Virus record (IMG/VR): IMGVR_UViG_3300047661_000056
Location: 1-52,904 of that record
DNA: 52,904 nt
Source: a virus
Direction: 5' to 3' (one strand)
The notes under the pieces were generated by a model. The model was not told the origin of the DNA and searched no databases. It saw only the letters and a program-made list of their open reading frames with translations. The translations under genes and the position numbers were made by a program. Shown here piece after piece: positions 3 to 36,940 of the stretch (position 1 is the first letter of the stretch; every line of letters begins with the position of its first letter).

Positions 3-1331
3 GCCATCCAAGCAGGCGCAATTGCACCGGGGGATGTAGATGAACGGAGCATCGTCGATGTTGAACCAGCCGACCTTATGGGATATGCCCAATGCCACTT
101 CTTCGCAGGTGGCGGATTCTGGAGCGTTGCCCTGCGTCAAGCTGGATGGTCCGACGAGTGGCCCGTCTGGACAGGCTCCTGCCCCTGCCCCAGCTTCAGC
201 GCGGCAGGCAAAGGTCAAGGGTTTGATGATCCTCGTCACCTCTGGCCTGCTTGGGCACGACTCATCCGCGAGTGCCACCCTTCAACAATCTTTGGAGAGC
301 AAGTTAGTGCCGCGATTGGACACGGCTGGCTCGACCTTGTTCAGACTGATCTGGAAGCACAAAACTACGCCGTTGGGAAGATCGTACTTGGAGCGGCAAG
401 CGTTGGCGCGCCACACATCCGGCAACGACTTTACTTCGTGGCGCAGTCCCAATGCCCGGCTGAACGGCGGCGGGGACTACTCGGACCCGGAGAAGGCGGC
501 GAAGCGCTTGGAGCAGGGGCATCAGCTCAATCTTTCGGAAGAAGTGCTGATTTCAGCTTGGCCAACACCGCAGACGCACGACGACAAGCTGCGGGGCAAC
601 ACGGAAGCGGACAACCACTATTTCCCGCACGACCTGAGCAACGCGGCGACTCTCTCGTCATGGTCGACGCCGAAGGCAGAGGACTCGGAATGTGCGGGAG
701 CGCATCGGGGCAAGCCGGATACACTGCACAGCCAAGCGAATCTGGCGACTTGGGCAACTCCTGCGAACAGCGATTATCGAACGGCCAACTTGAAGAGTTT
801 TGCGGAACGCGGCGGGGGCAAAAAGGGCGAGCAACTGCGAAACCAAGTGAAACAGTTGGCGGGTTGGGCATCTCCGAAAGTGAACGACGACAATCTGGAC
901 CGGCGCGGAATGAAGTCGACGGAGAAGGAATGGAATCGACCGAACGCAAGCAGATCGAGCCTGCCGCTGGAAGCAAAAATGCTGGCAGCATGGCCGAGCC
1001 CCTGCACGCCGAACGGTGGCCGTTCGATGTCGACGGACAAGATGGACGTGACGGGGAAGACGCTCGACGGCAGGAAGCACACGACGACTTTGGAACATGC
1101 AGTGAAGTTCGCGGGGCCAGTCCGCTTAACGGCTTCTGGCGAGATGCTGACTGGATTGGATGCCGGGATGGAAAGTTCCGGCCAGTTGAATCCGGCTCAT
1201 TCCCGCTGGCTCATGGGAGTGCCGCCCGTGTGGGACGACTTCGCCTCTACGGCGATGCAATCTGCATCCCTGCGGCACAAGCATTCATTGAAGCGTACCT
1301 CGAAGCAAAAAGCGCAAAGAAACAAGGATAA
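3..1331 (+). CDS. DNA cytosine-5 methyltransferase, 5'-partial
   Basis: Transfers a methyl group from SAM to C5 of cytosine in phage DNA. The frame is open from the window edge, and the residues before the first internal ATG (78) read APGDVDERSI, typical of the N-terminus of phage enzymes of this type, so the true start is upstream. Motif I reads HFFAGGGFW, the catalytic PC loop is SCPCPSFSAAGKG, followed by FGEQV (motif VI-like) and HIRQRLYFVA (motif VIII). The C-terminus carries GRLRLYGDAI (motif X-like). The middle target-recognition part is long and low in complexity. No restriction enzyme is adjacent, so it probably acts as an orphan protective methylase. A second long frame (40-1335) runs through the whole gene. 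The next gene overlaps its end region, consistent with an operon. Confidence 0.88.
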   Translation, partial: AIQAGAIAPGDVDERSIVDVEPADLMGYAQCHFFAGGGFWSVALRQAGWSDEWPVWTGSCPCPSFSAAGKGQGFDDPRHLWPAWARLIRECHPSTIFGEQVSAAIGHGWLDLVQTDLEAQNYAVGKIVLGAASVGAPHIRQRLYFVAQSQCPAERRRGLLGPGEGGEALGAGASAQSFGRSADFSLANTADARRQAAGQHGSGQPLFPARPEQRGDSLVMVDAEGRGLGMCGSASGQAGYTAQPSESGDLGNSCEQRLSNGQLEEFCGTRRGQKGRATAKPSETVGGLGISESERRQSGPARNEVDGEGMESTERKQIEPAAGSKNAGSMAEPLHAERWPFDVDGQDGRDGEDARRQEAHDDFGTCSEVRGASPLNGFWRDADWIGCRDGKFRPVESGSFPLAHGSAARVGRLRLYGDAICIPAAQAFIEAYLEAKSAKKQG

Positions 1332-4427: not shown

Positions 4428-5768
4428 GTGTATCGAATCTTGGAAGGTGACGTGACGGAAGTGCTCCGCACTTTGGCGACAGAGAGTGTGCAGTGTGTCG
4501 TCACGTCGCCACCTTACTGGGGACTGCGGGATTACGGCACTGCGACATGGGATGGCGGCGATCCTGACTGCAAGCATGTTGCTCATACCATTCGTACTGG
4601 CTTGGGGCTGGCGGCGTTGGGTGAGCGGTTCCGTGGCGGCGGCCATAAGCAAGGCGAAGTAACCGAGATTCAGTATCGCGATGTATGCGCGCAGTGTGGT
4701 GCGGTGCGTGTGGATCAACAGATTGGTTTGGAAAAGACACCTGAAGAATATGTCGACAAGATGGTGGCGGTGTTTGGCGAAGTACGACGTGTGTTGCGCA
4801 AGGACGGAACGTGCTGGATGAATATGGGTGATTGCTACGCTTCGGGGGCAATCGGCGGTTCAAAAATTGGGATTAAAAATACTTTGCAAACGTGCTCACC
4901 TTCGGGTTACCACACTCTTCCCAAAACAGAGAATTTGGTTGCAGTACCACGTTCTGTTCCATGCGGAATGAAGCCCAAAGATCTTGTAGGCATGCCGTGG
5001 ATGCTGGCATTTGCATTGCGTGCCGATGGTTGGTATTTGCGTCAGGACATTATCTGGGAAAAGCCAAATCCAATGCCGGAAAGTGTGCATGATCGTTGCA
5101 CAAAGTCGCATGAGTATCTTTTTTTGCTGACGAAGTCGCCGCGATACTTCTTTGATCAGGCCGCAATCAGCGAGCCTGTTACTGGCAATGCGCATTCGCG
5201 TGGTACTGGCGTGAATCCAAAAGCAAAATGGAAGACACCAGATGGATGGGATACCAGCACAGGAAATGGTGGCCACGGATCTTTTCACAAGGAAGGCCGT
5301 GAAGATGGGTTCGTTGGATACCAGCCGAAACTGCGGCCATTGGGTGAAAAAGGATCGCAAGCAGACCCCGACGAAGTTCGCAGTGCGCGCGGTGCAGCAT
5401 TTGGTCGCGGCGCTGGCTGGCGCGAAGCAGGCCACATCAAGCAGAACGAGAGTTTTAGCGCTGCCGTGAAAGATCTTGTGGAAACACGCAACAAGCGCAG
5501 CGTGTGGACGATTGCCACACAGGCGTTTCCCGAAGCACACTTTGCGACTTATCCGGAAAAGCTGGTGGAACCTTGCGTTCTGGCCGGAAGCAAAGAAGGC
5601 GATACCGTGCTGGACCCGTTTGCAGGCTCGGGAACTACGGGCGTGGTGGCACTGCGCTATGGCCGCAATTTTATCGGTATTGAGCTGAACGCGGAATATG
5701 CAGAGATGGCACGACGGCGCATTGAAGGTGACGCACCGTTGTTCAACAAACAGGAGAAAGCGGGATGA
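4428..5768 (+). CDS. DNA N4-cytosine/N6-adenine methyltransferase, beta-class order
   Basis: Methylates an exocyclic amino group in DNA using SAM. The catalytic motif IV (TSPPYWGLRDYG) is N-terminal, and the SAM-binding motif I (DPFAGSGTTGVV) is near the C-terminus and followed by FIGIELNAEY. This is the beta-class arrangement. Between them are GTCWMNMGDCYASG and WYLRQDIIWEKPNPMPE, typical of this family, and two CxxC-like pairs near residue 85. The start codon is GTG. No endonuclease neighbour is seen, so it is an orphan enzyme, probably protecting phage DNA. It overlaps the next small gene by four bases (ATGA). Confidence 0.9.
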   Translation: MYRILEGDVTEVLRTLATESVQCVVTSPPYWGLRDYGTATWDGGDPDCKHVAHTIRTGLGLAALGERFRGGGHKQGEVTEIQYRDVCAQCGAVRVDQQIGLEKTPEEYVDKMVAVFGEVRRVLRKDGTCWMNMGDCYASGAIGGSKIGIKNTLQTCSPSGYHTLPKTENLVAVPRSVPCGMKPKDLVGMPWMLAFALRADGWYLRQDIIWEKPNPMPESVHDRCTKSHEYLFLLTKSPRYFFDQAAISEPVTGNAHSRGTGVNPKAKWKTPDGWDTSTGNGGHGSFHKEGREDGFVGYQPKLRPLGEKGSQADPDEVRSARGAAFGRGAGWREAGHIKQNESFSAAVKDLVETRNKRSVWTIATQAFPEAHFATYPEKLVEPCVLAGSKEGDTVLDPFAGSGTTGVVALRYGRNFIGIELNAEYAEMARRRIEGDAPLFNKQEKAG

Positions 5769-5977
5769 CAACTTTTCCGGAAACACCTGCGGCCATTGCC
5801 GCTCGCCTGATTGAAGAAGACACGCAGATTGCTAAGTTGCTGGTGCTGGTGGTGCGCAAGGATGGGACGAGTTTTTCTTGCGACAACGGCTTGACGATCG
5901 ATGAGGCCAAGACGTTGACCGTTCACTTTAACACCTGGCTCGACAAGTATTCGGGTCAGGAAGAAAACACGGATTGA
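5765..5977 (+). CDS. Small hypothetical protein
   Basis: 70 residues, acidic, with a predicted beta-hairpin (VVRKDGTSFSCDNGL) flanked by helices. The ATGA overlap with the methyltransferase stop places it in the same operon. No family recognised. Confidence 0.65.
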   Translation: MTTFPETPAAIAARLIEEDTQIAKLLVLVVRKDGTSFSCDNGLTIDEAKTLTVHFNTWLDKYSGQEENTD

Positions 5978-5988
5978 GGAGAATCGGC

Positions 5989-6786
5989 ATGGGTACAGAA
6001 GCGTTTCAAGCGAACGAGCACGCTCTGATGCTCGTGAACACAGGTGGGATTGCTCCGGCGAAAAGTCTTGATGAACGGCTGCACGAGAGTGATCGAGCAA
6101 TTACCGAATCGTGGGTGGCGCTGAACAAGCGGTCAATGCTGATTGGCTGGGAGGGCTACTTCATCAAGCGCTACAACGGCTGGGAACGGTTGGGTTATCC
6201 CGACGAAAAGAGCTACCGCGCCAGCAAAGGCATTGGCCGCTCAACCTGGTACATGATGGTGGGTTTGGCGGAGCAGTTGCAGATGCTCAGCAAAGAGCAA
6301 TTTCTTTCAATGACGATTGAAAACGCCGAGGAATTGGCCAAGGCCCCTTCTGCGATGCGTGCTGACCCTGCCTTGCTGAATGCAGCCGCCACCATGCAGG
6401 CGCGAGAGTTCCAAAGCGAAGTGGGGAAGTATGCGGCATTGGCCGAGAATACGTCGCCCAAAGACAGAAGCACCTCGGTGAAATGGAGCGTTAGACAGTC
6501 GCAACGCGAGTTCATCGAGAGCGGCCTTGAGGAATGGCAACACGAGCACGGCATTGACGACCCCGGCTATGCGCTGGAGCTGCTGCTTGCCGAATACCAC
6601 GACAAGCCAACGCTGGTGGGCTTTATGGCCGAGTCGATTCCACGGTTGACGCGCGCAGTCACAGAAGCACACAGCGTGGAAGAGCTGGAAGCGCTGCGCA
6701 CGTTATTCGCGGCGCACATCCAAGAAATGGGCGAGATTTTAAAGGTTTGCTGCGGCGAAAGCAGCGCGAGCGAGGAAGCGGCATGA
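5989..6786 (+). CDS. Hypothetical helical protein
   Basis: 265 residues, largely helical. The ATG at 5989 is chosen over an upstream TTG because GAGGAGA lies six bases before it. The segment KRSMLIGWEGYFIKRY followed by GIGRSTWYMMVGLAEQL looks like a DNA-associated helix-turn-helix, but I cannot assign a family. It overlaps the next gene by four bases. Confidence 0.7.
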   Translation: MGTEAFQANEHALMLVNTGGIAPAKSLDERLHESDRAITESWVALNKRSMLIGWEGYFIKRYNGWERLGYPDEKSYRASKGIGRSTWYMMVGLAEQLQMLSKEQFLSMTIENAEELAKAPSAMRADPALLNAAATMQAREFQSEVGKYAALAENTSPKDRSTSVKWSVRQSQREFIESGLEEWQHEHGIDDPGYALELLLAEYHDKPTLVGFMAESIPRLTRAVTEAHSVEELEALRTLFAAHIQEMGEILKVCCGESSASEEAA

Positions 6787-10126: not shown

Positions 10127-11353
10127 ATGAGAAATCCATTGATGCGTGACAAGTTGGCAGCCGTTCTAGTATCCCCGAGCGATCAACTCCACCGAAAGAC
10201 AGAGGTATTGATTGCATCTGCGATAAAGTCTGCTAGACGATCTCCAAAGAAGAAACCTATTTCCACTGTTTTCAAGAATCCATATCAGGCGATTGCCGGT
10301 ACGCCTTTCACAAAAGAGCCTTCCGCGCCTCGGTATGTGACGCCGCCCAGTAGAAAAAATGCATTTTCTGTTCATGTGTACCCTGTTTCGCCGGAATTGG
10401 TAGAAAAGTCTGAACCTCCTTTGCCAGAACCCAAGGTGGAAGAACCAAAGATTGAAGAGCCAAAGGCCGAAGAAGTAAAGATTGAAGAGCCAAAAGTTGA
10501 AGAAACGAAGGTTGAAACCCCTGTTGCTGTTGCGCCGGAAGCGCCGCCACAACAGGCCCCGGCACCTGAACCTGTAGCCGAAATTCCTATTATTCCTGAG
10601 ATCGAGGCACCTGCTGAAGTAGATGCACCTAAACTCAGCTTGGTTGCCACGGTGACACCGATTCGGCCGCCAGAAACTCCAGAGGTTTTGGTTTTAGATC
10701 CCAATGAAAAGGTGGTGGAAGAGCACCCCGGCCAAGAAGAGACGCCACAATCTGTTGCTGCGTTACCTCAGAGCCTCAAATGGTTGGAGCAATCGACGCC
10801 TTTCGATGGTCATTTACGTTCGATGGTGGACCAATTGCGCACGGCAAAGACGAGCGTCGTTTTTACGTTGGACCAATCTACCGCCCGACAAACTGATTTG
10901 AGAGCCCAGCTCGCCGTCCTTCAAGACAAACTGGACAAAGAAGAGTTTTTAGGTGAGCAGCAGCGCGAATATTTGCACCAGTTGGATGAAGTGATTGCAG
11001 CCTGTGCGCTGGTGGCGGAACAAAGCTCAAGTGTTGAATCCATCTTGCGGGCCCCTGCGCACACTGCGCATAAGCATCATGAGGGGGAAGAGAAGCGCCA
11101 ATATCACAGGTCTTCCCTCAACTCTCCAACAGCGTGCCATCGCGAGGATGTGCTGAAGGTGATTAAAGAAAACCCTGGCCGCAAGTGGAGCAATGCCGAG
11201 GTTGTCCAAGCGCTGCCAGCAGCAAAACGTGCAAATGCCAAACAATATGTGTACGCGCTGTTGTCGACTTTGAATAGAGATGGCGTGATTCAACGGATCG
11301 CCCCCGGAATCTATGTTTGCCAAGAGCATAAGGATGCGGTAGAGGAGGCATGA
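10127..11353 (+). CDS. Pro/Glu-repeat protein with coiled coil and C-terminal winged helix
   Basis: 408 residues in four parts: a basic N-terminus (SARRSPKKKP); a Lys-Val-Glu-Glu-Pro repeat region (about residues 100-130, units such as KVEEPK and KIEEPK) and a Pro/Ala stretch; a helical coiled coil (about 225-300); and a C-terminal winged-helix-like domain (CHREDVLKVIKENPGRKWS, NRDGVIQRIAPGIY). It may tether DNA or a protein partner through the long linker. The ATG at 10127 follows CTGGAGG; an in-frame ATG at 10109 lacks a Shine-Dalgarno. Function unknown. Confidence 0.7.
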   Translation: MRNPLMRDKLAAVLVSPSDQLHRKTEVLIASAIKSARRSPKKKPISTVFKNPYQAIAGTPFTKEPSAPRYVTPPSRKNAFSVHVYPVSPELVEKSEPPLPEPKVEEPKIEEPKAEEVKIEEPKVEETKVETPVAVAPEAPPQQAPAPEPVAEIPIIPEIEAPAEVDAPKLSLVATVTPIRPPETPEVLVLDPNEKVVEEHPGQEETPQSVAALPQSLKWLEQSTPFDGHLRSMVDQLRTAKTSVVFTLDQSTARQTDLRAQLAVLQDKLDKEEFLGEQQREYLHQLDEVIAACALVAEQSSSVESILRAPAHTAHKHHEGEEKRQYHRSSLNSPTACHREDVLKVIKENPGRKWSNAEVVQALPAAKRANAKQYVYALLSTLNRDGVIQRIAPGIYVCQEHKDAVEEA

Positions 11354-11742
11354 TGGGTACTGAGGACGAATCTGAACATCCGTGGATTGGCTCGTATGTT
11401 TTGAACGACGAAGGCAATCCGGTGCCCGAGCACGATGTGCTGAAATGGGCCGAATGGCTCGAAGCCCATGATCGCCATTTGGCAACCACCAACTTCAGTT
11501 GGGGGAAAGTCTCAACTATCTTCCTCGGTTTGGACGAAAGGTTCCTCTCATTTTGTCTGCAAGATCCGCTCCTTCACGAGCCGGTGCTTTGGGAAACGAT
11601 GGTGTTTGGTGGTCCTCTCAACGGAGAACAGCGGCGGTATACCTCGAAGGAAGAAGCGTTAGAAGGCCATCGCCATCTGGTTGAAGAATGCAAGGAGGCA
11701 GAAAAGCATTGCGCCAGTCGCTTTAATCCAGCCCTAAACTGA
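11350..11742 (+). CDS. Conserved phage hypothetical protein
   Basis: 130 residues. WETMVFGGPLNGEQRRYTSKEEAL is similar to short phage proteins of unknown role. ATGATG overlaps the preceding stop. Its end overlaps the convergent recombinase gene by nine bases. Confidence 0.7.
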   Translation: MMGTEDESEHPWIGSYVLNDEGNPVPEHDVLKWAEWLEAHDRHLATTNFSWGKVSTIFLGLDERFLSFCLQDPLLHEPVLWETMVFGGPLNGEQRRYTSKEEALEGHRHLVEECKEAEKHCASRFNPALN

Positions 11743-12351
11743 GTGTTCCCTCGCTTCTTTAAAGTACCTGGAAATCGTTGCCTTTGAAACGCCGCAAACG
11801 GTGGCTATGGTGGTATACGACTTCCCTTTTGCGCGAAGCTCCTGAGCCCTTTCTTGGTCAAAGACGGCCGGAGGCCTGCCGGGGCCGAATCGTCCGTTGG
11901 GGCCTGGTGTATGCATCTGCTGTTGTTTCTCAATGCCAATGCGCGTTTTTTCTCCGATGTAAACGCTGTTTTGCTCAACCAGTAGGGCGATAATCGCGAA
12001 CACTGTCTCCCTTGAGGTGTGGCAGGAATCCAGGTGCCGCTCTGTATAAGAACAGAATCCGACATTCCAACAAGAGAGTTTGTGCAGAAGCAATATGGTA
12101 TTGTTGGCATTTTGACGAGTGAGCTGGTTGAGCGTCCAGAAGATGAGCGCATCAAAATGATGCTGTTTCGCGTCCAGCAGCATCTTCTTGTAAGCATCGC
12201 GATCCGCGCCCGGGGAGGTCACAAGATCGCGGTAGATGTGTGTCGTTCTCCAGCCATAGCGCAGTACCATCTCTTCCATGCGCTGAATCTGGTTTTCGGC
12301 GATGTGTGGATCATCCTTTATGGGGGTGCAACTGTAAATTGCAACACGCAT
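11734..12351 (-). CDS. Small serine recombinase (resolvase/invertase family)
   Basis: 205 residues. The catalytic domain starts MRVAIYSCTPIKDD, with the likely nucleophile Ser in IYSCT. The C-terminal domain GRPPAVFDQERAQEL...TTIATVCGVSKATISRYFK is a Hin-type HTH. The usual LDRLGR motif reads LNQLTR, so one conserved Arg is replaced by Gln; activity is therefore uncertain. The start is the ATG after AAGGAGG; the upstream extension is not supported. It could resolve phage/plasmid dimers or invert a segment, but no matching inverted sites were identified. Confidence 0.78.
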   Translation of the reverse strand: MRVAIYSCTPIKDDPHIAENQIQRMEEMVLRYGWRTTHIYRDLVTSPGADRDAYKKMLLDAKQHHFDALIFWTLNQLTRQNANNTILLLHKLSCWNVGFCSYTERHLDSCHTSRETVFAIIALLVEQNSVYIGEKTRIGIEKQQQMHTPGPNGRFGPGRPPAVFDQERAQELRAKGKSYTTIATVCGVSKATISRYFKEAREHSV

Positions 12352-12445
12352 CTGTATCCTCCTTGTGGGGACATTGTACCTGATATTTAGGCCAAACGTT
12401 CCTGAATGGTTGGCAAAAAAATGCTCAATTGGGTAAAGTGATGAA

Positions 12446-12640
12446 ATGATTACCAATGGCGATATTTTGGTGTGTGATGTTTGCGGGGCGAAGGAAGTGT
12501 ATGACAAGGCAAAGCCTTTGCCTGAGCGATGCTGGAATCGCAAATGCAGAAGTTGGCGTTGGAATTCTGGGGGAGAAGATCGGCGGACGTGGCCACGTGT
12601 AAAACCGGAACAGACACAAGTGAAACCTCCGAAAAGTTAA
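12446..12640 (+). CDS. Zinc-ribbon protein ending in WNSG motif
   Basis: 64 residues. Two CxxC-type pairs (LVCDVCGAKEV, ERCWNRKCRSWRWNSGG) form one zinc ribbon with a Lys/Pro tail. A paralogue sharing the RxWNSG end lies at 35748-36029. It is divergent from the recombinase, from which it is separated by about 95 bases that should hold both promoters. Confidence 0.65.
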   Translation: MITNGDILVCDVCGAKEVYDKAKPLPERCWNRKCRSWRWNSGGEDRRTWPRVKPEQTQVKPPKS

Positions 12641-13504: not shown

Positions 13505-14230
13505 ATGACAAAACAACTTTTTGGGAATCGAAAACCTAGCTGGCGGTCGGTTACGTTTCCCTCGGAAAGCGTCAATAAAATCAAGCGTGGCTTGATCACG
13601 CAAATGGCTAGGCCTATCTATCCCCAACCGCCGGGAGAAACCTTAATTCAAGATTTCGCGACTTCGTTGCACTGGTACAGCGCCGATGAAGAGAGGTGGC
13701 GTTGCCCGTACGGAGCCCCTGGTGATCTGCTTTGGGTTCGGCAGGTGTGGGCGCGTGTGGAACCGCATCCGCAAGTGCTGGAAAAGTACAGAATGCCGGT
13801 TTCATGGAAGGTAGAAAAAGACCCCGTGTTGTTGGATTACTGGCGCAAGCGCGTCATCTTCTTGTCTGACCACCCCAGCAAAAAACCGGAAGAATGCGGG
13901 TGCGGAGCATCGGACAACGTATGGCGCAGCTCTGTTGCAATGCCCCGTTGGGCATCGCAGCTTTCGCTCGAAGTGACAGAGGTGCATGCGCAGCGCATGC
14001 GTGAGATCAAGTCCAACGATGCGATGGACGAAAGTGCGGGGATAACCCCGGAGACCTGGGTGTGGCGCGTGGTTTTTCGGAGGTTGGAGAGCGAGAATAA
14101 GCCGAGCTTGGCCAAGGTTTTTACCGCTCTTGATGCGGCTCAACTTCCCAAAGACTTTATGGACGAAGCAGACCGAGATCGTCGACCAGCCGAGGAGCGT
14201 CCGGCGCTCAAGCGACTTTTTGAAAGCTGA
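13505..14230 (+). CDS. Phage ASCH/PUA-like domain protein
   Basis: 241 residues. CPYGAPGDLLWVRQVWA, MPRWASQLSLEVTEVHAQR and the MREIKSNDAMDES helix match the phage group related to ASCH domains, thought to bind RNA or modified nucleotides. Cys-Gly-Cys-Gly near residue 130 may bind metal. The ATG at 13505 is preceded by an in-frame GTG three bases upstream. Role unknown. Confidence 0.7.
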   Translation: MTKQLFGNRKPSWRSVTFPSESVNKIKRGLITQMARPIYPQPPGETLIQDFATSLHWYSADEERWRCPYGAPGDLLWVRQVWARVEPHPQVLEKYRMPVSWKVEKDPVLLDYWRKRVIFLSDHPSKKPEECGCGASDNVWRSSVAMPRWASQLSLEVTEVHAQRMREIKSNDAMDESAGITPETWVWRVVFRRLESENKPSLAKVFTALDAAQLPKDFMDEADRDRRPAEERPALKRLFES

Positions 14231-14239
14231 GAAGGCACC

Positions 14240-14614
14240 ATGGATAAAATCTTTTGTTTTGGATCGAATCAGCGTGGAATACATGGCGCAGGCACGGCGA
14301 AGATTGCCGCGCGGGAATATGGCGCGAAGTTTGGTGTGGGCGAAGGCCGCACGGGCAATGCCTATGCGATTCCGACAAAGATCACTCCGTACAAAGTGCG
14401 GCGACTGATCGACATTCAAGCCAGTGTTGACATGTTTCTGGAGTATGCGCGGGCGCACACGGATTTGGAGTTCCACGTGGTGCGGATTGGTTGTGGCTTA
14501 GCCGGGTTCTCCGATGAGCAGATCGCGCCGCTTTTTGAAGGTGCACCGGCGAATTGCCGCTTTGACCCCAAGTGGGAAAAATATGGTTTGTCGCCGTGGG
14601 CAGATGAGCCATAA
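14240..14614 (+). CDS. Conserved phage non-structural protein (A1S_2505-like)
   Basis: 124 residues. FCFGSNQRGIHGAGTAKIAA, YAIPTKITPY and VVRIGCGLAGFSDEQIAPLF match a common phage family with a macrodomain-like look. The GSN and GAG loops suggest nucleotide binding. The family name is from memory; the function is not established. Confidence 0.65.
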   Translation: MDKIFCFGSNQRGIHGAGTAKIAAREYGAKFGVGEGRTGNAYAIPTKITPYKVRRLIDIQASVDMFLEYARAHTDLEFHVVRIGCGLAGFSDEQIAPLFEGAPANCRFDPKWEKYGLSPWADEP

Positions 14615-14706
14615 CGAGCGGTAAAAACGTCTGTTGATTGTCTGTGTACGGAATAACGCAAAAACGGTGTATTTTTCTAACGAATTTTGTTCCACGAGGA
14701 TATAGG

Positions 14707-15246
14707 ATGGAAGCGCATCAAGATACACCTCTTGAAGAAGATGGAGAGATCGCGCCTCACCTGGGCGCGCGGATTGAAACAAACGAACAAGCGGAAGCAT
14801 CGATTATCGATACCGAGGAGATGACAATGACAAGTCCAATCGCCAAACCAGATCCGGCAACATTGAAGTGCCCAGAATGCGGGATGACTGGATTCAAAGA
14901 CACACGTGGCTATGGAATACATCGCTTCGCGAAGCATGGTGTCCATGGTTCATCGCCTGCTACTTTGTCCTCTCTTAAGCGAAAGCAAGAAGGGAAGAAG
15001 AACACCGTCGCAGCGTCGAAGAGAAGTTACCATAAGAAGCCGATTCCTGTGGTGGCGCCGCAAGGCGAGATCGCGGTCGTGGTGAAGAAGCAGCTGGAAA
15101 TTGCGCCGATTCCTCCCGCGATGGTGGGCTATGCGATGGGCAAACTGGAAAGCCTGGCTGCCCAGATCGCTCGGGAAAACGAGCTGCCGGAGCAGGAGTT
15201 TGTCCGGCTTGTGGCGGCCAATCTTGCCGAGTTGACCAAGCGGTAA
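14707..15246 (+). CDS. C2H2 zinc-finger protein with basic linker
   Basis: 179 residues. An acidic N-terminus is followed by one finger, CPECGMTGFKDTRGYGIH then FAKH, then a Lys-rich linker and a helical C-terminus. A GAGGATATAGG Shine-Dalgarno sets the start at 14707. It is the gene immediately before repeat array 1. Unknown function, probably nucleic-acid binding. Confidence 0.65.
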   Translation: MEAHQDTPLEEDGEIAPHLGARIETNEQAEASIIDTEEMTMTSPIAKPDPATLKCPECGMTGFKDTRGYGIHRFAKHGVHGSSPATLSSLKRKQEGKKNTVAASKRSYHKKPIPVVAPQGEIAVVVKKQLEIAPIPPAMVGYAMGKLESLAAQIARENELPEQEFVRLVAANLAELTKR

Positions 15247-15253
15247 ACAAAGT

Positions 15254-15280
15254 GGGAGTGTACCCCTCGGGTGCACTCCC
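15254..15280 (+). terminator. Stable hairpin between gene and array 1
   Basis: GGGAGTG-T-ACCC / GGGT-G-CACTCCC with a CTC loop. It overlaps the altered 5' part of the first repeat and has no U-run after it, so it may terminate the upstream gene or cap the array transcript. Confidence 0.5.
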
Positions 15281-16015
15281 AGTAGTTGAAGTGCATCGAG
15301 CAGATGCAACCATGGCAAAGCGATTCATGCGGTCGAAATACTGGTCGCAATGTAGTTTGAGTGCATCGCGTAGATGCAACTTCAACGACTCGCCAGTGAT
15401 GAACCTGTCTCGCTGGTCGCAAGGTAGTTTCAGTGCATCGAGTAGATGCAACGTACTTAGCATGAGTTGCTTGACCTTCGGTCAATGTCGCAAGGTAGTT
15501 GAAGTGCATCGAACAGATGCAACGTTTTAAAGCTGCATTCACAAATTCCAGCATTTGGTCGCAAGGCAGTTTGAGTGCATCGCGTAGATGCAACCATTAA
15601 GATACCCAGCGAATAGCACATCCGCTTCGTAGCAAAGCAGTTGAAGTGCATCGAGTAGATGCAACTGTTCGAACTGTCACGCATGCGTGTACTGCCAGGT
15701 AACAAAGCAGTCAAAGTGCATCGCATAGATGCAACGCCCCAGATGCGATAACGGTAATCTGCAAACGTGTAGCAAGATAGTCTTAGTGCATCGGATAGAT
15801 GCAACAACGGCAACCGCTTCAAAGCAACGTGGGCGTGGGGTAGCAAGGTAGTTTAAGTGCATCGAACAGATGCAACAACTAGATCAGGGTGGGCAACACC
15901 GTAGTCTCCGGTCGCAAGGTAGTTTGAGTGCATCGCGTAGATGCAACCAACAATGGGAAACTGGCTAGGATGGACATCGTAGCAATGCAGTTGCAGTGCA
16001 TCGGATAGATGCAAC
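15274..16015 (+). CRISPR. CRISPR-like array 1: 11 repeats of 37 nt, 10 spacers
   Basis: Repeats end at 15310, 15380, 15452, 15523, 15594, 15665, 15735, 15805, 15876, 15947 and 16015. Spacers are 31-35 nt and all different. The repeat has a 5' block GTCGCAAnGTAGTTT (or GTAGCAA...CAGTT) and a 3' hairpin: TGCATC, five-base loop, GATGCA, then AC. Loops vary (GAGCA, GCGTA, GAGTA, GAACA, GCATA, GGATA) but all fit G-N-R-N-A. The first repeat has lost its usual 5' end. No clear promoter is visible, so it may be read from the upstream gene. No cas gene is adjacent. Confidence 0.82.
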
Positions 16016-16046
16016 AGATACAAGAAGCCGTAAATCTAGAGGAACA

Positions 16047-16295
16047 ATGGAAAACGATTCGACAGCCAAGCCGCACTCTGAAATTTCCCAGTGGGTGATC
16101 TATGACCATCCGCGCGATTATCCTGACCACTTTGTGATGCGGCGCTGGGGCATTACGGCCGGCGACTTTTTCCCGACCGACGATGTGGCTTTGGCCGATA
16201 CGCTCCCCGAGATTCGGAAGCACGTTCCGCCTGGACTCTTTTGCTTGGAACGCTACGAGAATGACGACCCTTGCATCGTAGAGGTTTGGATATGA
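16047..16295 (+). CDS. Hypothetical protein
   Basis: 82 residues, acidic, with Trp/Tyr-rich segments (WVIYDHPRDYPDHFVMRRWG). It is similar in style to short phage proteins of unknown role. AGAGGAACA precedes the ATG, 31 bases after array 1. The upstream in-frame ORF is repeat sequence and was ignored. It overlaps the next gene by four bases. Confidence 0.65.
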   Translation: MENDSTAKPHSEISQWVIYDHPRDYPDHFVMRRWGITAGDFFPTDDVALADTLPEIRKHVPPGLFCLERYENDDPCIVEVWI

Positions 16296-16516
16296 ACAAA
16301 GCTTGTGTCGACCACTTTGAATCGACCATGGACATGAAGAAGAACCTGACCTACGAGAGCGTCAAAGCCCGCGTACTGGAGATTGGACGGTATTCCGTGT
16401 TTGAGGCCACAGCCAGCGATACGCGTGCGGGGATCTTTAACAGTCTGTGCCACGACCCCGAACTTGTTTGCACGCCGGTCGGGTATCCTTGGGTGAAGGT
16501 AGAAAAAGCCCGCTGA
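16292..16516 (+). CDS. Hypothetical protein
   Basis: 74 residues starting MNKACVDHFESTMDMKKN. The ATGA overlap with the preceding stop suggests coupling. No domain recognised. Confidence 0.6.
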   Translation: MNKACVDHFESTMDMKKNLTYESVKARVLEIGRYSVFEATASDTRAGIFNSLCHDPELVCTPVGYPWVKVEKAR

Positions 16517-16555
16517 ACCGCAGTCCAGATTCCGGACCACAGAAAGAGAAGACCC

Positions 16556-16975
16556 ATGATCAAAGAGATCAGAAATCGGACGGAAGCCGCTTGGGAATGT
16601 CTGCCATTCCTTTGGCGGTCGGTGCTTTTTGCCGTCTACGACTTGACTGTTAGCGTGTGGCTCGTGTCGGTGGGAGCATGTATTTACTCTGACTATTTGC
16701 ACAAAAAGCCGATGCTCTGGCCACTTGCGCTAGTAGCATCGGCTTTATGCGTTTGCCTTACCTTTAGAAATCTTGCGTGGTTTCGTGTTGTCAAGCTGCA
16801 GAAAGACTGCATAGCGACACTGACAAGTAACAACAAGAAACTGTTGGGTTTTTTGTTTCGTTCTGTGAACTCAAAAGGCATGAATATGGCAGATGCGGCG
16901 GTTGAACCGCAACACGTCGTATGCAAGGTGAAGGTCGCATTTCAGGAGCCTGACGACCTTTCTAAAATGAACTAA
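16556..16975 (+). CDS. Two-span membrane protein
   Basis: 139 residues. Hydrophobic spans lie near residues 22-45 (LFAVYDLTVSVWLVSVGACI) and 54-70 (LWPLALVASALCVCL), followed by a polar C-terminal domain. Possible phage membrane or holin-like protein, but position alone does not decide. A palindromic hairpin follows its stop. Confidence 0.6.
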   Translation: MIKEIRNRTEAAWECLPFLWRSVLFAVYDLTVSVWLVSVGACIYSDYLHKKPMLWPLALVASALCVCLTFRNLAWFRVVKLQKDCIATLTSNNKKLLGFLFRSVNSKGMNMADAAVEPQHVVCKVKVAFQEPDDLSKMN

Positions 16976-16981
16976 ATCCCC

Positions 16982-17003
16982 GGCCGCGTATGCCTACGCG
17001 GCC
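16982..17003. terminator. Convergent terminator hairpin
   Basis: A perfect 9-bp stem GGCCGCGTA / TACGCGGCC with a TGCC loop lies between the + membrane gene and the - higA gene, whose last codons it includes. No long U-run on either side. Confidence 0.5.
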
Positions 17004-17278
17004 TTGCTGAAGAGAGGAATCTTTGGGATTTTCTTTTTCCTCGCTTGAGCAAAATCGTAGTCGGTTTGCATCTCAAACCACAGGCTCGGGTGCGTCCCTA
17101 GCGCAGCAGAAAGCCGGATGGACATTTCCGCCGTGATGCCCCCACGACAGTTGAGCACCTTGGAAAGCGTCACGCGGGATACGCCGATGTGCTTTGCAAA
17201 ATGCGTGATATTCACACCTTCCAAGTAGTCGCGCAGCACACGGCCAGGATGAGCCGGGTTGTACATTTCAGTAGGCAT
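16994..17278 (-). CDS. higA: HigA-family antitoxin
   Basis: 94 residues of the XRE/HigA type: HPGRVLRDYLEG, then ITHFAKHIGVSRVTLSKVLN and LGTHPSLWFEMQ. It neutralises HigB and represses the operon. It lies nine bases after the toxin gene, the toxin-first order typical of higBA. Confidence 0.9.
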   Translation of the reverse strand: MPTEMYNPAHPGRVLRDYLEGVNITHFAKHIGVSRVTLSKVLNCRGGITAEMSIRLSAALGTHPSLWFEMQTDYDFAQARKKKIPKIPLFSKAA

Positions 17279-17287
17279 TTTCTCCCC

Positions 17288-17566
17288 TTAGTGGTAATCC
17301 TTATAGTCCAAGAGAATTACATCCTCGCCATCGAAGGTAAAGGTCAACCGCCAGTTTCCGTTTACCCGTATTGACCAGTGTTTCTCTTTGCCATGCAACT
17401 GATGCAATCCCCACGACACAGGCTTTGCCAAATCGTCGGGACTCCTTGCGCGGTTGAGAAGAGATAGCTGCTCTTCCAACTTTGCAGCATGATGTGGCTG
17501 AATCCCGGCCTTGCTGCCGGTCTTGAAAAACTTTTCCAGCCCGGCATGCCGGAACGACTTAATCAT
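17288..17566 (-). CDS. higB: HigB-family toxin (RelE-like mRNA interferase)
   Basis: 92 residues. MIKSFRHAGLEKFFKTG, LHQLHGKEKHWSIRVNGNWR and LLDYKDYH are the standard features of ribosome-dependent HigB endoribonucleases. Length is normal and no residue looks lost. First gene of the HigBA operon. Confidence 0.9.
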   Translation of the reverse strand: MIKSFRHAGLEKFFKTGSKAGIQPHHAAKLEEQLSLLNRARSPDDLAKPVSWGLHQLHGKEKHWSIRVNGNWRLTFTFDGEDVILLDYKDYH

Positions 17567-17572
17567 ATAGGA

Positions 17573-17601
17573 ACTGTATCGCTATAGTTTACAGATGTCA
17601 A
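17573..17601 (-). promoter_or_regulatory. higBA promoter and operator
   Basis: On the - strand, TTGACA and TACAGT are separated by 17 bases just upstream of higB. An inverted repeat CTGTA (17574) / TACAG (17590) covers the -10 and spacer, as expected for HigA autorepression. Confidence 0.65.
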
Positions 17602-17695
17602 CGCGGCTACTCTGCCAACGCTTCCTTTTTTTCGATCCAAATAGAACCTTTCTCGCCTTTCTTCGACCTCGAAGAGTTTTACAAACATGCCTGTT

Positions 17696-17731
17696 TATAA
17701 TCCGCTCCAGCACTGCGCATACACTGCGCAT
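17696..17731 (+). promoter_or_regulatory. -10 box with direct-repeat operator
   Basis: TATAAT at 17696-17701 is followed by two direct repeats CACTGCGCAT (17711 and 17722, 11-bp period). They lie upstream of the HTH gene at 17754, a plausible autoregulatory site. The -35 is weak. Confidence 0.45.
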
Positions 17732-17753
17732 CGTGCACCGAGGAGCGAGCGGC

Positions 17754-18032
17754 ATGGGCAAGCGCGGAAGAAAAACCTATGAAGAATTTGCAAATGGAGT
17801 AATGCCTGTCCGCGTGATTGCGGAGCGGATGGGTGTGTCTGAACGCACTGTCACCACAGACCTGAAGAATGCGCAACGAAAGCTGAAAAACACTCCAGAG
17901 GCGTTTCCTATCTTGCTGGATTGCCTTTACGCGGTGGCTGCTTCAGAGAAAGAGCTTTTGCAGTGCGGCTCCGTTGAGTGTGATCGCGAATACATCGAAA
18001 AATATGGATGGGACCAAGGAAGCAAGGGATAG
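17754..18032 (+). CDS. Sigma/HTH-like DNA-binding protein
   Basis: 92 residues. VMPVRVIAERMGVSERTVTT followed by DLKNAQRKLK is a region-4-like HTH. AGGAGCGAG sets the start at 17754; the longer ORF is unsupported. It lies four bases upstream of the deformylase gene and may be co-transcribed with the lysis genes. Confidence 0.7.
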   Translation: MGKRGRKTYEEFANGVMPVRVIAERMGVSERTVTTDLKNAQRKLKNTPEAFPILLDCLYAVAASEKELLQCGSVECDREYIEKYGWDQGSKG

Positions 18033-18035
18033 CCT

Positions 18036-18575
18036 ATGCCGCGCTTGGGAAAGTTGTCGCTGAATTTTTACCACAGAGAACTCGCAGGCAGGGCCTGTCG
18101 ACGCGTACAAAAGTCGGACAATGTGCGCGTGTTGATCCGCCAGATGTTGCGCCTGATGCAACAACACGACGGCACCGGACTGTCTGCCCCGCAGGTAGGC
18201 GTCTTTCTGCAACTGGCGGTGGTGAAGTTGCCCCCGTCGAACGAAATTCAGGTGTTGATTAATCCAGAGATTGTGAACTGGGCAGGAAAGGATTTTCTGG
18301 CGACGGAAAGCTGCCTGAGTTTGCCGCCGACCGAGCGGGCCAAGGCCAGAATATGGCGTAGCGAGATTGTGCATGTGCGCAATGGCACCCTCGAAGAGCC
18401 TGACGCTGAAAATCTCACCATTTATCGGGGCGCGGCCGCACGGATTGTGCAACATGAAATCGATCATCTTGACGGCGTATTCTTCATCGACCGCTGCCAG
18501 CCTGTGGGCAAGGCGCACGTCTTGCGGGCGTACGAAAGCTTTTTGCTGGGGCAGGGAGAGCTGGTGCATGGCTGA
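18036..18575 (+). CDS. def: Peptide deformylase
   Basis: Removes the N-terminal formyl group from new proteins. All three family motifs are present: GTGLSAPQVG (motif 1), ESCLSLP (motif 2, metal Cys) and QHEIDHLDG (motif 3, HExxH with catalytic Glu). At 179 residues the length is normal. Phage-borne deformylases are known, mainly from marine phages. The gene overlaps the endolysin by eight bases, so it belongs to the lysis operon. It may help maturation of virion proteins when host capacity is limiting (inference). Confidence 0.92.
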   Translation: MPRLGKLSLNFYHRELAGRACRRVQKSDNVRVLIRQMLRLMQQHDGTGLSAPQVGVFLQLAVVKLPPSNEIQVLINPEIVNWAGKDFLATESCLSLPPTERAKARIWRSEIVHVRNGTLEEPDAENLTIYRGAAARIVQHEIDHLDGVFFIDRCQPVGKAHVLRAYESFLLGQGELVHG

Positions 18576-19113
18576 TTTCAATGTGGCGATCAAGGTGGTG
18601 CTGGCGCATGAGGGGGGCGTGGGAACCCTGAAGGGTGACCCTGGCGGCAAGACCAAGTTCGGATGGTCAGCGGCCACGTGCAAGCTTCTTAAGATTGCCC
18701 AGCCAAAGACGGCCGAGGAAGCGACCGCGCTTTATCTGAAGTATTTTTGGAATCCGCTCTACAGCCAGATCGTGAACCAGGACGTGGCCACCAAGCTGCT
18801 TGACGATGGGGTAAACCAGGGCACAGAGACCGGTATTGAGCATTTGCAGGCCGCGCTGATCCATGCGGGCCACACTGTGGAGGTGGATGGCCTTTTTGGA
18901 CCGGGCACGCTGGCGGCTGTGAATCAAGCGATCAGCACGCTGGTGCTGGAATGGATGCGGCTGATCCAGTACCAGAGTTATGATCGATGGATCAAAGCGG
19001 ATGCGGTGCGGGAAGCGCAGCGAGAAGGGTTGGCGCGCCGTGCGGCATGGCCCAACCAAAACGACGTGATCGCCAAGCAATTGATGGCCGGCACGTATCA
19101 ACCGACGATTTGA
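18568..19113 (+). CDS. Endolysin, GH108 N-acetylmuramidase with peptidoglycan-binding C-terminus
   Basis: Cleaves the glycan backbone of peptidoglycan at lysis. VLAHEGGVG with catalytic Glu15, then DPGGKTKFGWS, is the GH108 signature. The C-terminal half (GHTVEVDGLFGPGTLAAVN) is the PG_binding_3-type segment. At 181 residues it is a typical length. No signal peptide, so export would need a holin; none is next to it. The start ATG lies inside the deformylase end. Confidence 0.9.
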   Translation: MADFNVAIKVVLAHEGGVGTLKGDPGGKTKFGWSAATCKLLKIAQPKTAEEATALYLKYFWNPLYSQIVNQDVATKLLDDGVNQGTETGIEHLQAALIHAGHTVEVDGLFGPGTLAAVNQAISTLVLEWMRLIQYQSYDRWIKADAVREAQREGLARRAAWPNQNDVIAKQLMAGTYQPTI

Positions 19114-19262
19114 GCTGGTTTTCCGCGAACCCTAAGCGGCCGGAAAAAGGCGGGAGGTTCGCGCAAGGCGTAAGAAAATGATTTTGAAGGAGATAATGAG
19201 GGCATTGTATCGAGCATCCCAACTAGAAGAGCGCAGATTTGCGAGGTTCGCGAAAAACGTCC

Positions 19263-19293
19263 TTGATCTTCTTCAATCGCAAAGCGTTATAAT
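19263..19293 (+). promoter_or_regulatory. Promoter of repeat array 2
   Basis: A perfect -10 TATAAT (19288-19293) lies 19 bases after TTGATC (19263-19268). The expected start of transcription, about seven bases on, falls at 19300, directly before the first repeat (19301). Confidence 0.65.
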
Positions 19294-19300
19294 GAGCGCA

Positions 19301-20676
19301 GCCGCAATGTAGTTTCAGTGCATCGAACAGATGCAACTTCTGGTCTTCTTGTTTCTTCCGAAGGTGGCGAGTCACAATGTAGTTTCAGTGCATCGAACAG
19401 ATGCAACTGGAGGTCGAGCTTGTCCTGCATGGTGATGTTTAGGTCGCAATGTAGTTTCAGTGCATCGAACAGATGCAACATCCATCACCTGGTAAAAGAG
19501 TCCCGCAATTTCGTGTCGCAAGGTAGTTAAAGTGCATCGAACAGATGCAACGCGTATCGCACCTTGTATTGCTCAACTGCTCGATCATGCCGCAAGATAG
19601 TTTCAGTGCATTGAACAGATGCAACCTTGATGACCTGCTAACACTTTCCAAGGGCTCACCAAGCCGCAATGTAGTTTCAGTGCATCGAACAGATGCAACT
19701 TGCATCAAGAGTACACGCTTTGGGAGTACATGCGTCGCAAGGCAGTTTCAGTGCATCGAACAGATGCAACGGTTGTGGACGCTAGTGTCTGGACAAATTA
19801 TAGGGTCGCAAGATAGTTTAAGTGCATCGAACAGATGCAACACTCGCGGTCATGTCTCTCTTGGCTGAAGTCGAACGTCGCAAGATAGTTTTAGTGCATC
19901 GAGCAGATGCAACTATTACGGTCCCGGTGGACAGGTTTTCCAGGTTTCGTCGCAAGGTAGTTTCAGTGCATCGAGCAGATGCAACATGGTATCGGAATCA
20001 TTTCTCGATTTTTTCTGCTGTCGCAATGTAGTTTCAGTGCATCGAACAGATGCAACGGTCGTAGTGTGTGAGTTCAAAAGCATAAACAGTCGTCGCAAGG
20101 TAGTTAAAGTGCATCGAACAGATGCAACATTCATAGCAGCAGCAAGACGGCTTCCGTAGCCGTGTCGCAATGTAGTTTGAGTGCATCGAGCAGATGCAAC
20201 GTTGGTACTGGAGAAAGCGTATCAGGGAGTGGAAGTCGCAAGGTAGTTAAAGTGCATCGAGCAGATGCAACTGGGAAAATGATCCTGCAAAGGCTTATTA
20301 GTGGGATAGCAAAGCAGTCAAAGTGCATCGCATAGATGCAACAGGCTTATTGCTTCTTGATTCAACTCCGTGTCGCAAAATAGTCTCAGTGCATCGCATA
20401 GATGCAACTACTGGAAAAATGGAAATGTGCCAAAAGATAGCAAGCATCAAAGCAGTTTGAGTGCATCGCGTAGATGCAACGAGGTCACGTTACCCGAAGT
20501 CGAGCAGTTGATCGAGTCGCAATGTAGTTTGAGTGCATCGAACAGATGCAACTTACAAGGACCCACCAGCGTAGTAATGCAGTTGAAGTGCACTGGATAA
20601 GTGCAACGCGAAATCCGTAGCGACAGCGCTACCTCATCGGTAGCAATGCAGTTGAAGTGCATCGCATAGATGCAAC
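19301..20676 (+). CRISPR. CRISPR-like array 2: 20 repeats of 37 nt, 19 spacers
   Basis: Repeats start at 19301, 19371, 19443, 19515, 19589, 19663, 19734, 19805, 19877, 19949, 20020, 20092, 20164, 20235, 20306, 20372, 20444, 20516, 20571 and 20640. Most spacers are 33-37 nt; the exceptions are 29, 18 and 32 near the end. The first fourteen repeats are nearly identical (GAACA or GAGCA loop), while the last six diverge. This is the decay pattern of a leader-distal CRISPR end. The repeat at 20571 carries a two-sided stem change (CACT...AGTG for CATC...GATG). Spacers show no evident match within this window by eye. Confidence 0.87.
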
Positions 20677-20739: not shown

Positions 20740-21420
20740 TCACGCGCAAGCGCTGTGAAATTTCTCACGAGCAAGGATCTTTGCCACCGTCCCGGCCTTC
20801 CAGGTGCCCCCCATGCGCGTGGGAATGGCGGTGGCGTTCAAGGCGCCGGCAATGGCCCGGGTCGTCTCTCCTTGGGCCTTTAACGCACGAATCTGTGCGA
20901 GGACTATGGCTTCTCCAGGTTTTTCTCCAAAGGCGTGCCGGCCGTCTCCACGTTCTCCTCTAGCCTTCTTGCGCTGGCGCGCACCGCGTAGCTTAAGTAC
21001 GATTACGCAGCGATCAAACTCGGCGACGGCCGCTAGAATCTGACGAATTAGTTTAGCCGTGGGGTTGGAATCGTCTCCCTCGGTTAGATCGATACCGCCA
21101 GACGCAGAAATGACGCGAACTCCAATCTTTTGAAACTCGCGTACAACAACTTCTGCCACGATCATGTCGCGGGCCAATCTGTCGCTGGACTCAACCAAAA
21201 CAAGCTTGATTCCCTTTTCACGGATGAATTGTATGCAGGCTGAAAGACCGGCACGTCCTTCCAACTCCATCTTGCCTGTTACGCCTTCATCCCGGAATTC
21301 ATCGACAATTGCAATTTCATTGGCGGCGGCATATTTAACGATAACTGCGCGCTGACGTTCCCACGTATCGCCGAGAACTTGGCTTTCGCCAGAACACCGC
21401 ATATATGAAACAGCTTCCAT
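20740..21420 (-). CDS. Serine recombinase (resolvase family)
   Basis: 226 residues. The catalytic domain opens EAVSYMRCSGESQVLGDTWE, with the nucleophile Ser in CSGESQ, and has the intact ESSDRLARD motif. The C-terminal part TTRAIAGALNATAIPTRMGG is the resolvase-type recombinase/HTH segment. AGGAGAAAA sets the start at 21420, seven bases after the upstream gene stop. Lying at the end of array 2, it may act on phage dimers or on the region itself. Its C-terminal module resembles that of the neighbour at 21428. Confidence 0.85.
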   Translation of the reverse strand: MEAVSYMRCSGESQVLGDTWERQRAVIVKYAAANEIAIVDEFRDEGVTGKMELEGRAGLSACIQFIREKGIKLVLVESSDRLARDMIVAEVVVREFQKIGVRVISASGGIDLTEGDDSNPTAKLIRQILAAVAEFDRCVIVLKLRGARQRKKARGERGDGRHAFGEKPGEAIVLAQIRALKAQGETTRAIAGALNATAIPTRMGGTWKAGTVAKILAREKFHSACA

Positions 21421-21427
21421 TTTTCTC

Positions 21428-22135
21428 CTATCGATGATTGCGCAAGATACGATCAATGCCTGATCCCCACCAGCATTTTCCACGGGGTGACATAATTTTC
21501 ATAGAATTCAGCACGTCTGCAATATCTCTGGTAGTTTTGCCCAAAGAGTGCAGCGATAAGATTTTCTGCAAAATGTCAGCATGTTCAGGCTTGTCAATGA
21601 AAAATGAACGGGGGCGTTGATTGTTTGCCTGCTCTTTCCATGTAGCCCATCGGCAATTTGTCGGTTCATAATCGCCGTCTTTATCCGGAAAGCGGTCAAG
21701 TGTCATTCCCGGTTTTGGCTTACCCATATCCGCCAGGAAGTTTTCAAACTTTTCCCATCGTTTGCAGACTTTGATTCCACGTCCGCCGTAGTACGAAAAG
21801 CATTTGCATTTTGGTGAAGAACAACGCCGTTTCATCCCACACCATATCGTATAGACAGCAGTCCTTTTTCCTAACCGTGTGCGAGCGCAGCCATGCGTAA
21901 GAGCAGATTCTGGAGAATAGAACTTGATGTGATTTTGAATTTCTTTTCTGCGGCAACCACAGGAAACAACGCCGCCCCTCGTAAGATTGCTTTGGCGAAC
22001 TTGAGTCGTATTTCCGCAGACGCAAAGGCAGTTCCAAACCGATGACTTTCCGGCTTGATGCGAGTATCCCGTTACAGTAAGCCGACCAAAGACTTTGCCT
22101 GTCAGATCCTTGCGAAAGTGTACTTTTTCCGTCAT
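21428..22135 (-). CDS. AP2/HNH-type phage protein with recombinase-like C-terminus
   Basis: 235 residues. LTGKVFGRLTVTGY, WNCLCVCGNTTQVRQSNL, VVSCGCRRKE, TIWCGMKRRC and YEPTNCRWATWKEQANNQR are the marks of a frequent phage family related to HNH/AP2 homing-type proteins, here with extra Cys pairs. The last 45 residues (TTRDIADVLNSMKIMSPRGK...) resemble the DNA-binding end of the adjacent recombinase rather than this family. GGGAGGT sets the start at 22135. Nuclease activity is uncertain. Confidence 0.7.
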   Translation of the reverse strand: MTEKVHFRKDLTGKVFGRLTVTGYSHQAGKSSVWNCLCVCGNTTQVRQSNLTRGGVVSCGCRRKEIQNHIKFYSPESALTHGCARTRLGKRTAVYTIWCGMKRRCSSPKCKCFSYYGGRGIKVCKRWEKFENFLADMGKPKPGMTLDRFPDKDGDYEPTNCRWATWKEQANNQRPRSFFIDKPEHADILQKILSLHSLGKTTRDIADVLNSMKIMSPRGKCWWGSGIDRILRNHR

Positions 22136-36900: not shown

Positions 36901-36931
36901 TTGACAACGCGGGGGCTTGGCGCAAAGTATT
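36901..36931 (+). promoter_or_regulatory. Promoter before repeat array 3
   Basis: A perfect TTGACA (36901-36906) with AGTATT 19 bases later. The expected start lies at about 36938, just before the first hairpin unit at 36941, the same arrangement as for array 2. Confidence 0.5.
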
Positions 36932-36940
36932 GAGGTGTCA

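Follow-up and report, generated by a model that had tools for sequence, protein, structure and literature searches.

CRISPR arrays in a virus genome fragment as putative guides of a phage-borne type V system with affinity to Cas12m

Putative guide arrays and their proposed function

In this work, two arrays of clustered regularly interspaced short palindromic repeats (CRISPR) were analysed in a fragment of a phage genome, the IMG/VR virus record IMGVR_UViG_3300047661_000056, of which positions 1 to 52,904 (52,904 bases) are called the window below. On the basis of sequence comparison, it is highly probable that they supply trans-acting guides to a type V system which is borne by phages and has affinity to Cas12m. 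We hypothesize that the arrays are transcribed from left to right, that Cas12 or a host RNase trims the transcript to CRISPR RNAs (crRNAs) consisting of hairpin plus spacer, and that the Cas12-crRNA complex binds double-stranded DNA (dsDNA) at targets flanked by TTC. The most likely effect would be that, during infection, transcription is blocked in the genes of competing phages and in accessory genes of the host, because Cas12m binds without cutting, the RuvC residues of the effector vary and the targets examined lie at gene starts. It would mean that the phage of a soil bacterium probably silences rival phages and host genes with these guides.

Together, the two arrays hold 31 repeats of 37 nucleotides (nt) and 29 spacers, mostly of 33-35 nt, all on the plus strand (Table 1). 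The distance from one repeat start to the next is mostly 70-74 nt, with exceptions of 55, 66, 68 and 69 nt, and within both arrays each of the 29 spacers is found once. Both thus have the regular repeats and the unique spacers of near-constant length by which a CRISPR array is recognized. The motif AGTGCATCGNNNAGATGCAAC, with at most two mismatches, occurs 35 times on the plus strand of the window and not once on the minus strand, and its reversed control was found on neither strand, so the repeats are not a matter of chance. The recount and the control uphold the original prediction in its 31 repeats, its unique spacers and the CRISPR architecture of both arrays. Its inventory was right for these two arrays, but it overlooked a third cluster of hairpins, and the repeats vary rather than being identical: their 5' half, their loop and, in a covarying manner, their stem differ. 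A set of 464 repeats, of which 220 are distinct, was collected from 23 partly redundant records with a pattern that itself fixed columns 18-21 and 33-37; the set prefers G at column 1, has its last C at column 37 and is unconserved in the columns outside.

Table 1. Coordinates of the arrays, hairpin elements, matched spacers and target sites (positions in the window unless another record is named)
Feature	Record	Position	Strand	Description
CRISPR array 1	window	15274-16015	+	11 repeats of 37 nt, 10 spacers
CRISPR array 2	window	19301-20676	+	20 repeats of 37 nt, 19 spacers, one just 18 nt
Spacer of array 2	window	19771-19804	+	32/34 nt match at the 5' end of a 294-aa open reading frame, G025:C336; flank 5'-TTC
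Spacer of array 2	window	19842-19876	+	29/35 nt match over the start of a 174-aa open reading frame, phage record G016; flank 5'-TTC
Protospacer	window	6722-6754	+	matched at 30/33 nt by a spacer from the five-repeat array of L101
Third cluster	window	36929-37553	+	12 copies of the same hairpin, irregular spacing of 38-71 nt, compensatory stem variants
Fixed 20-nt stretch	window	37388-37407	+	between GCGC-stem hairpin and full repeat, third cluster
Fixed element	window	37340-37444		GCGC-stem hairpin, invariant 20 nt, full 37-nt repeat
Fixed element	G016	11310-11415		same
Fixed element	G024	516-621		same
Fixed element	G010	~39155-39050	-	same
294-aa target gene	L329	453-1337	-	matched by spacers of two phage groups

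Hairpin handle of the repeat

The 3' part of the repeat has the layout AGTGC-NNN-loop-NNN-GCAAC, and this hairpin, about the last 20 nt of the repeat, stands directly 5' of the spacer. All three inner pairs form in 63 of 68 distinct hairpins, which had been chosen by their flanks only. Stem cells changed on both sides number 51, compared with 20.0 ± 3.6 in shuffles, and none of the 500 shuffles reached 51, although related rows can by themselves beat shuffles. When the pairing partners were slid by 1-3 columns, pairing fell from 98.5% to 20-53%. Judged by this pattern of changes, the 3' hairpin is evidently real, and the type V style handle that would work without a trans-activating RNA, as had been proposed, agrees with a hairpin next to the spacer whose stem changes are compensated. 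The loop has the form GNRNA in 48 of the 68 distinct hairpins; it is not universal, because the loops of records G017 (three nt) and L341 differ.

Related records and turnover of the arrays

The hairpin is present in 24 other IMG/VR records (47 stretches); some of these records form near-identical groups, and others are more remote, with a DNA identity of about 72-89% over parts. In bacterial genomes it occurs in 11 stretches, with more than one copy in L097 (two, from a bog metagenome-assembled genome, MAG) and L101 (five, from an Acidobacteriales MAG) and single copies in the rest. The IMG/VR contig G006 is 99.965% identical to window positions 1-34578. The window, G006 and G011 agree in arrays 1 and 2, while G002 is without one unit of array 2. 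At one internal place of array 2, G002 also carries an entirely different spacer, so the content of this array is still changing. No full-length spacer of arrays 1 and 2 was shared with unlike phages. In the array next to the effector gene, G002 and G006 have the trailer-side spacers s32, s33, s36 and s37 in common and differ on the leader (near) side, a polarized turnover as is typical of CRISPR, seen in one strain pair in which the G002 contig ends inside the array. Moreover, the ten repeats of the downstream array of L341 that are closest to the effector are identical, and its distal repeats drift. Change at the near end in G002 and G006 and drift at the far end in L341 make up the growth pattern of a CRISPR array. 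It is likely that the window arrays are older, slowly changing stocks of guides and that new spacers would enter the array adjacent to the effector.

Effector gene and its neighbourhood

As predicted, no cas gene was found in the window: searches gave no Cas1, no Cas12f-like TNB domain and no match to phage Cas4, Cas1 or Cas2. The suggestion that the phage carries its effector elsewhere proved right, since G006 has a cas12 gene at 10291-12603, its end lying 8.1 kb ahead of the position that corresponds to window base 1 and an array of 19 repeats with the same hairpin coming downstream of it, and related phages also carry effector and arrays. The proposed search for arrays with the same repeat beside a nuclease gene led to the cas12 gene of G006 and its relatives, two of them with cas4-cas1-cas2. 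The small effector that had been supposed is not supported, since the one in G006 has 770 amino acids (aa). Its loan from the host is disfavoured by its presence in just 3 of 300 genomes of the Acidobacteria family to which the L097 MAG belongs, and a role of the arrays as decoys is also disfavoured.

Effectors were found in seven viral records, namely G001, G005 and G022 (alike), G006, G017, G328 (132.7 kb) and L341, and the three family genomes are L097, G171 and G235. They are 726-774 aa long (689 aa from the first start in the frame-broken L097) and 48-63% identical to the G006 effector. The gene adjoins arrays of the same hairpin in G001, G005/G022, G006, G328 and L341, and arrays of the three-nt-loop form in G017; two repeats accompany it in L097, and no hairpin was recognized beside the G235 effector. 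The TNB domain PF07282 scored above its cut-off in 5 of 22 records, the window not among them, each with arrays close by, and the G001 protein scanned alone reached 24.0 against a cut-off of 26.3. A single effector with RuvC motifs and a TNB zinc ribbon near the arrays is what characterizes type V. In G001 and G017 the gene order is cas12-cas4-cas1-cas2-array, and Cas1 scored 473 and 466 bits, respectively, against a cut-off of 385 for the type I-C model; Cas4 and Cas2 likewise lie above their cut-offs. No cas4, cas1 or cas2 was found at the remaining effector loci, most of these records being fragments, and Cas3 was found in none of 13 records. The effector gave only short transposase-like matches, in five records, among 50,697 phage records, and weak Cas12m/TnpB relatives among plasmids. 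Two candidate explanations were rejected: orphan arrays, since the effector was found outside the window, and a host-borrowed effector as the main source, given the 3 of 300 genomes, the broken frame in L097, three hairpins at G171 and none recognized at G235.

Some observations concern the surroundings of these loci. In L341 arrays stand on both sides of the effector, with 7 hairpins from 1697 to 2142 and 24 from 4587 to 6337. The three hairpins alongside the G171 effector have, by eye, another stem but the same layout. In L132, a 476-kb genome contig, three hairpins come after an effector (14172-16352, minus strand); their stem differs (GTGGCTC..GAGTCAAC, by eye), and this is possibly a host-borne form.

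Affinity of the effector to Cas12m

In the PDB sequence search Cas12m leads (1e-7 and 8.5e-7), with TnpB-like proteins next, and the search with an alignment gave UnCas12m4a at 7.8e-11, a mimivirus TnpB-like protein at 9.5e-7 and Cas12m2 at 3e-6; these matches are confined to the C-terminal end of the effector. The lead PADLOC models, Cas12u1 (79-101 bits) and PDLC01692, labelled Cas12f (80-107 bits), both cover the C-terminal half, and both give 309-312 bits to a protein of 664 aa from the Pelobacter propionicus plasmid pPRO1, along most of that protein. The effector profile matched this pPRO1 protein with a probability of 97% and E 7e-11 over columns 333-723. No NCBIfam model scored above its cut-off. 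Foldseek placed Cas12m at ranks 1-4 (E 7e-14 to 2e-10) with TM-scores of 0.21-0.31, for a query model with a predicted local distance difference test (pLDDT) value of 58. Based on these PDB, PADLOC, profile and Foldseek results, the predicted effector is nearest to Cas12m (V-M/V-U1), with a divergent N-terminal half.

Spacer targets and flanking motifs

For the target search, 283 distinct spacers of 28-40 nt were compared with 4.9 Mb in 283 partly redundant records, with the arrays masked. Six spacers matched phage or MAG DNA with at most six mismatches and ten with at most eight, compared with none and two, respectively, for reversed spacers; the matches to foreign DNA are thus above chance, as for CRISPR. 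The 5' flank of the best site is TTC for four of the six, CTC for one and CCA or TCC for the other, which supplies the protospacers and, for most of them, the common protospacer adjacent motif (PAM) that had been proposed as a check. A 5' PAM together with a handle 5' of the spacer is the type V arrangement. The lack of a protospacer for any spacer had been named as a sign against CRISPR guides, and two window spacers have TTC-flanked matches (Table 1). One of them lies in an open reading frame (ORF) in which a G005 spacer also matches, at 34 of 35 nt behind TTC, the two sites being 54 nt apart, so that two phage groups address one gene; the contig that carries it comes from an Acidobacteriaceae bog MAG. 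The G016 ORF matched by the other has a weak primase match (phrog_6088, E 1.8e-7). A G003 spacer matches G010 at 30 of 34 nt behind TTC. The phage of the window is, by its sequence match, apparently itself a target, of a spacer in L101, a contig of phage or host origin. Two L101 spacers match several phages including that of the window, with flanks TCC, TTC, TTT or CCA for one and CTC or TTC for the other.

The 294-aa gene family is patchy, being found in 10 of the 300 family genomes. The gene had no match in Pfam, PADLOC or PHROGs, and no neighbour was common to all of five loci in five genomes. We take the N-terminus of the protein to resemble PIN domains, with no tool match. This uncharacterized family is a possible obstacle to phages.

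Points against the proposed function and alternative explanations

Several points weigh against the proposed function. The effector was seen in the near-identical contig G006, the window's own record being without it. No convincing match was found in the 4.9 Mb for 26 of the 28 window-array spacers searched (the 18-nt spacer being left out). Array 1 had no match at E ≤ 0.001 in 398 genomes, a search with no positive control and at most two candidates scored per genome, and array 2 had none at E ≤ 1e-5 in the phage collection. Among array 2 matches in genomes, one of E 5.2e-8 was taken as real and those of E ≥ 0.003, nine of which were inspected as alignments, were treated as chance matches, and the seed of the 19771 spacer was found in viral contigs only in the arrays themselves. 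The contig with the 294-aa ORF is just 3.4 kb long and may be misbinned or mobile. All seven target sites (one per spacer, from the ten spacers at ≤8 mismatches) lie within -75 to +150 of a gene start, a placement that a blocker of transcription would require, as against a fraction of 0.25-0.35 of random positions, but this range was chosen after the sites had been seen, n is seven and two sites are in one gene. The model behind the fold match is weak, the AlphaFold2 models from 5 and 7 sequences being poor (pLDDT 58 and 55, pTM 0.34 and 0.31; the first alone was searched with Foldseek). The alignment of this first model extends over most of Cas12m at low TM-scores; the profiles align the C-terminal half alone. 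Finally, one and the same spacer of the third cluster recurs in unlike phages, contrary to the behaviour of an array that turns over.

A cutting effector would keep the same system and make it a type V nuclease that destroys the DNA of rival phages and of the host. The layout of PAM and guide is as in type V, and the aligned RuvC residues are D-E-D in five of eight members (G006, G017, G328, G171 and G235), the RuvC-I residue being D in six and E in two, the RuvC-II E invariant and the RuvC-III residue D in seven. On the other hand, RuvC-I is E in G001 and G005 (E-E-D), RuvC-III is N in L097 (D-E-N), and a nuclease has no need of targets at gene starts. According to PMC11013384, the nearest relatives, Cas12m with D-E-D, H-D-D or N-D-D, likewise leave dsDNA uncut, and PMC10442227 reports the same for H-D-D. 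Cutting is regarded as unlikely, while still the most serious of the competing explanations. The window's two arrays could instead be functionless relics kept by chance, with the effector-proximal array alone in use. The repeats of an array are not uniform, both arrays are almost unchanged among the window and its close strains, and most of their spacers are unmatched; the strains that share them, however, are too close to reveal decay. Against such relics, the stem changes stay compensated, two window spacers have full-length TTC-flanked targets, one of them at 32 of 34 nt, and an internal spacer was replaced in G002, which makes this explanation improbable.

It is scarcely credible that the arrays are not CRISPR at all, that is, tandem hairpins serving as regulatory or packaging elements (e.g., boxB-like GNRNA hairpins) between neutral spacers. 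GNRNA is a known protein-binding loop shape, it prevails among the distinct hairpins, and the third cluster has irregular hairpins with a stretch fixed across unlike phages. Nevertheless, a Cas12 gene adjoins such arrays, in two records with cas4-cas1-cas2, some spacers match foreign DNA behind TTC, one array turns over at one end, and G017 and L341 have other loops. Only for the third cluster could a regulatory or packaging role still apply.

Comparison with known systems

The trans-acting guide arrays proposed here compare best with V-M (V-U1) systems of Cas12m (MmCas12m2, GoCas12m, MsCas12m and Cas12u1 of pPRO1), which are alike in the top sequence and fold matches, the hairpin 5' of the spacer and mobile carriage. 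In pPRO1, four repeats of about 36 nt follow at a period of 73-75 nt just downstream of the effector, as here. On the other hand, the present effectors have 726-774 aa, compared with about 600 for Cas12m, and by profile their C-terminal half alone aligns (79-107 PADLOC bits, compared with 309-312 for pPRO1). The genomes also differ from typical V-U systems in several arrays per genome, in repeats that vary within an array and in cas4-cas1-cas2 at two loci (G001 and G017), whereas V-U1 to V-U5 are typically without adaptation genes (PMC11013384, in the part available). The PAM of Cas12m is described there as 5'-TTN, T- and C-rich, like the T/C-rich 5' PAM found here. The available part of PMC10910872 describes a Cas12m-Cas3 hybrid, which likewise places Cas12m beside type I-C-like parts, although the I-C-like part is Cas3 there and Cas4-Cas1-Cas2 here. 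For landfill viruses, 24 viral proteins below 800 aa were placed with Cas12m and a jumbo phage has some arrays far from cas genes (PMC12607003); compared by description, the available part of that paper does not mention Acidobacteria phages, cas4-1-2 or targets. The type I-F CRISPR system of Vibrio phage ICP1 is also phage-borne, has adaptation genes and is aimed at a host defence element, PLE, with a class 1 effector where the present one is class 2 (PMC11656645, in part). The same paper reports V-M systems on plasmids and some prophages and calls CRISPR systems rare in phages below 200 kb. Among the literature matches listed, no title or abstract opening concerned Cas12m with Cas4-1-2 in Acidobacteria phages, most subscription papers being outside reach.

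Membership of Casλ or Casφ was rejected, since no PDB sequence match was so named; Casλ2 stood at Foldseek rank 23 (E 4e-4, compared with 7e-14 for Cas12m2). Casφ (V-J) and Casλ (V-L) are phage-borne and compact and have a hairpin handle adjoining the spacer, as here. Al-Shayeb and colleagues are said to have described many phage type V families in 2022, and the present effector family may be among them. We tentatively consider, with somewhat less than even confidence, a new type V subtype of phage-borne adaptive interference, in which a Cas12m-derived binder and a captured type I-C adaptation module with several scattered arrays would silence rival-phage genes and an accessory host gene targeted independently by two phage groups, and of which the fixed element of hairpin, 20 nt and repeat may be the regulatory RNA. 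A phage family with records up to 133 kb, a Cas12m-like effector, spacer-acquiring genes of its own in two of them and some readable targets would permit a test of programmable silencing, not cutting, by phages against other phages and hosts.

Third cluster and other features

The third cluster lacks the regularity of a CRISPR array; a degenerate array, solo repeats and a separate RNA locus are candidates. Its 20-nt stretch (Table 1) is identical in the near-identical phages G002 and G023 and in G010, G016 and G024, which have no DNA stretch of 300 nt in common with the window; an exact scan of the viral contigs gave no further record. This element is a candidate for a dedicated RNA, either of the system or of the phages, or for a kept guide. 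Identical spacers in distant relatives had been named as the other sign against CRISPR guides; spacers of arrays 1 and 2 are shared with near-identical phages alone, and this stretch does show such sharing.

A promoter scan of the window gave fewer matches than shuffles. A TATAAT hexamer at 19288-19293, where that scan lists none, ends 7 nt ahead of the first repeat of array 2, and another stands 20 nt ahead of the effector-proximal array of G006 (L071 12680-12685). In three different records (window 19120-19169, L101 ~3875-3925, L068 5148-5195), arrays are preceded by a long stem-loop (CCGCGAACC...GGTTCGCG), a candidate leader element or terminator of the preceding gene. An Rfam scan found nothing but a tRNA; the phage has a tRNA-Met gene at window position 35874 and a tRNA-Tyr gene at 39536. 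Two ORFs of the same cluster, 11734-12543 and 20740-21483, flank the array region, and the latter encodes a serine recombinase (Pfam Resolvase).

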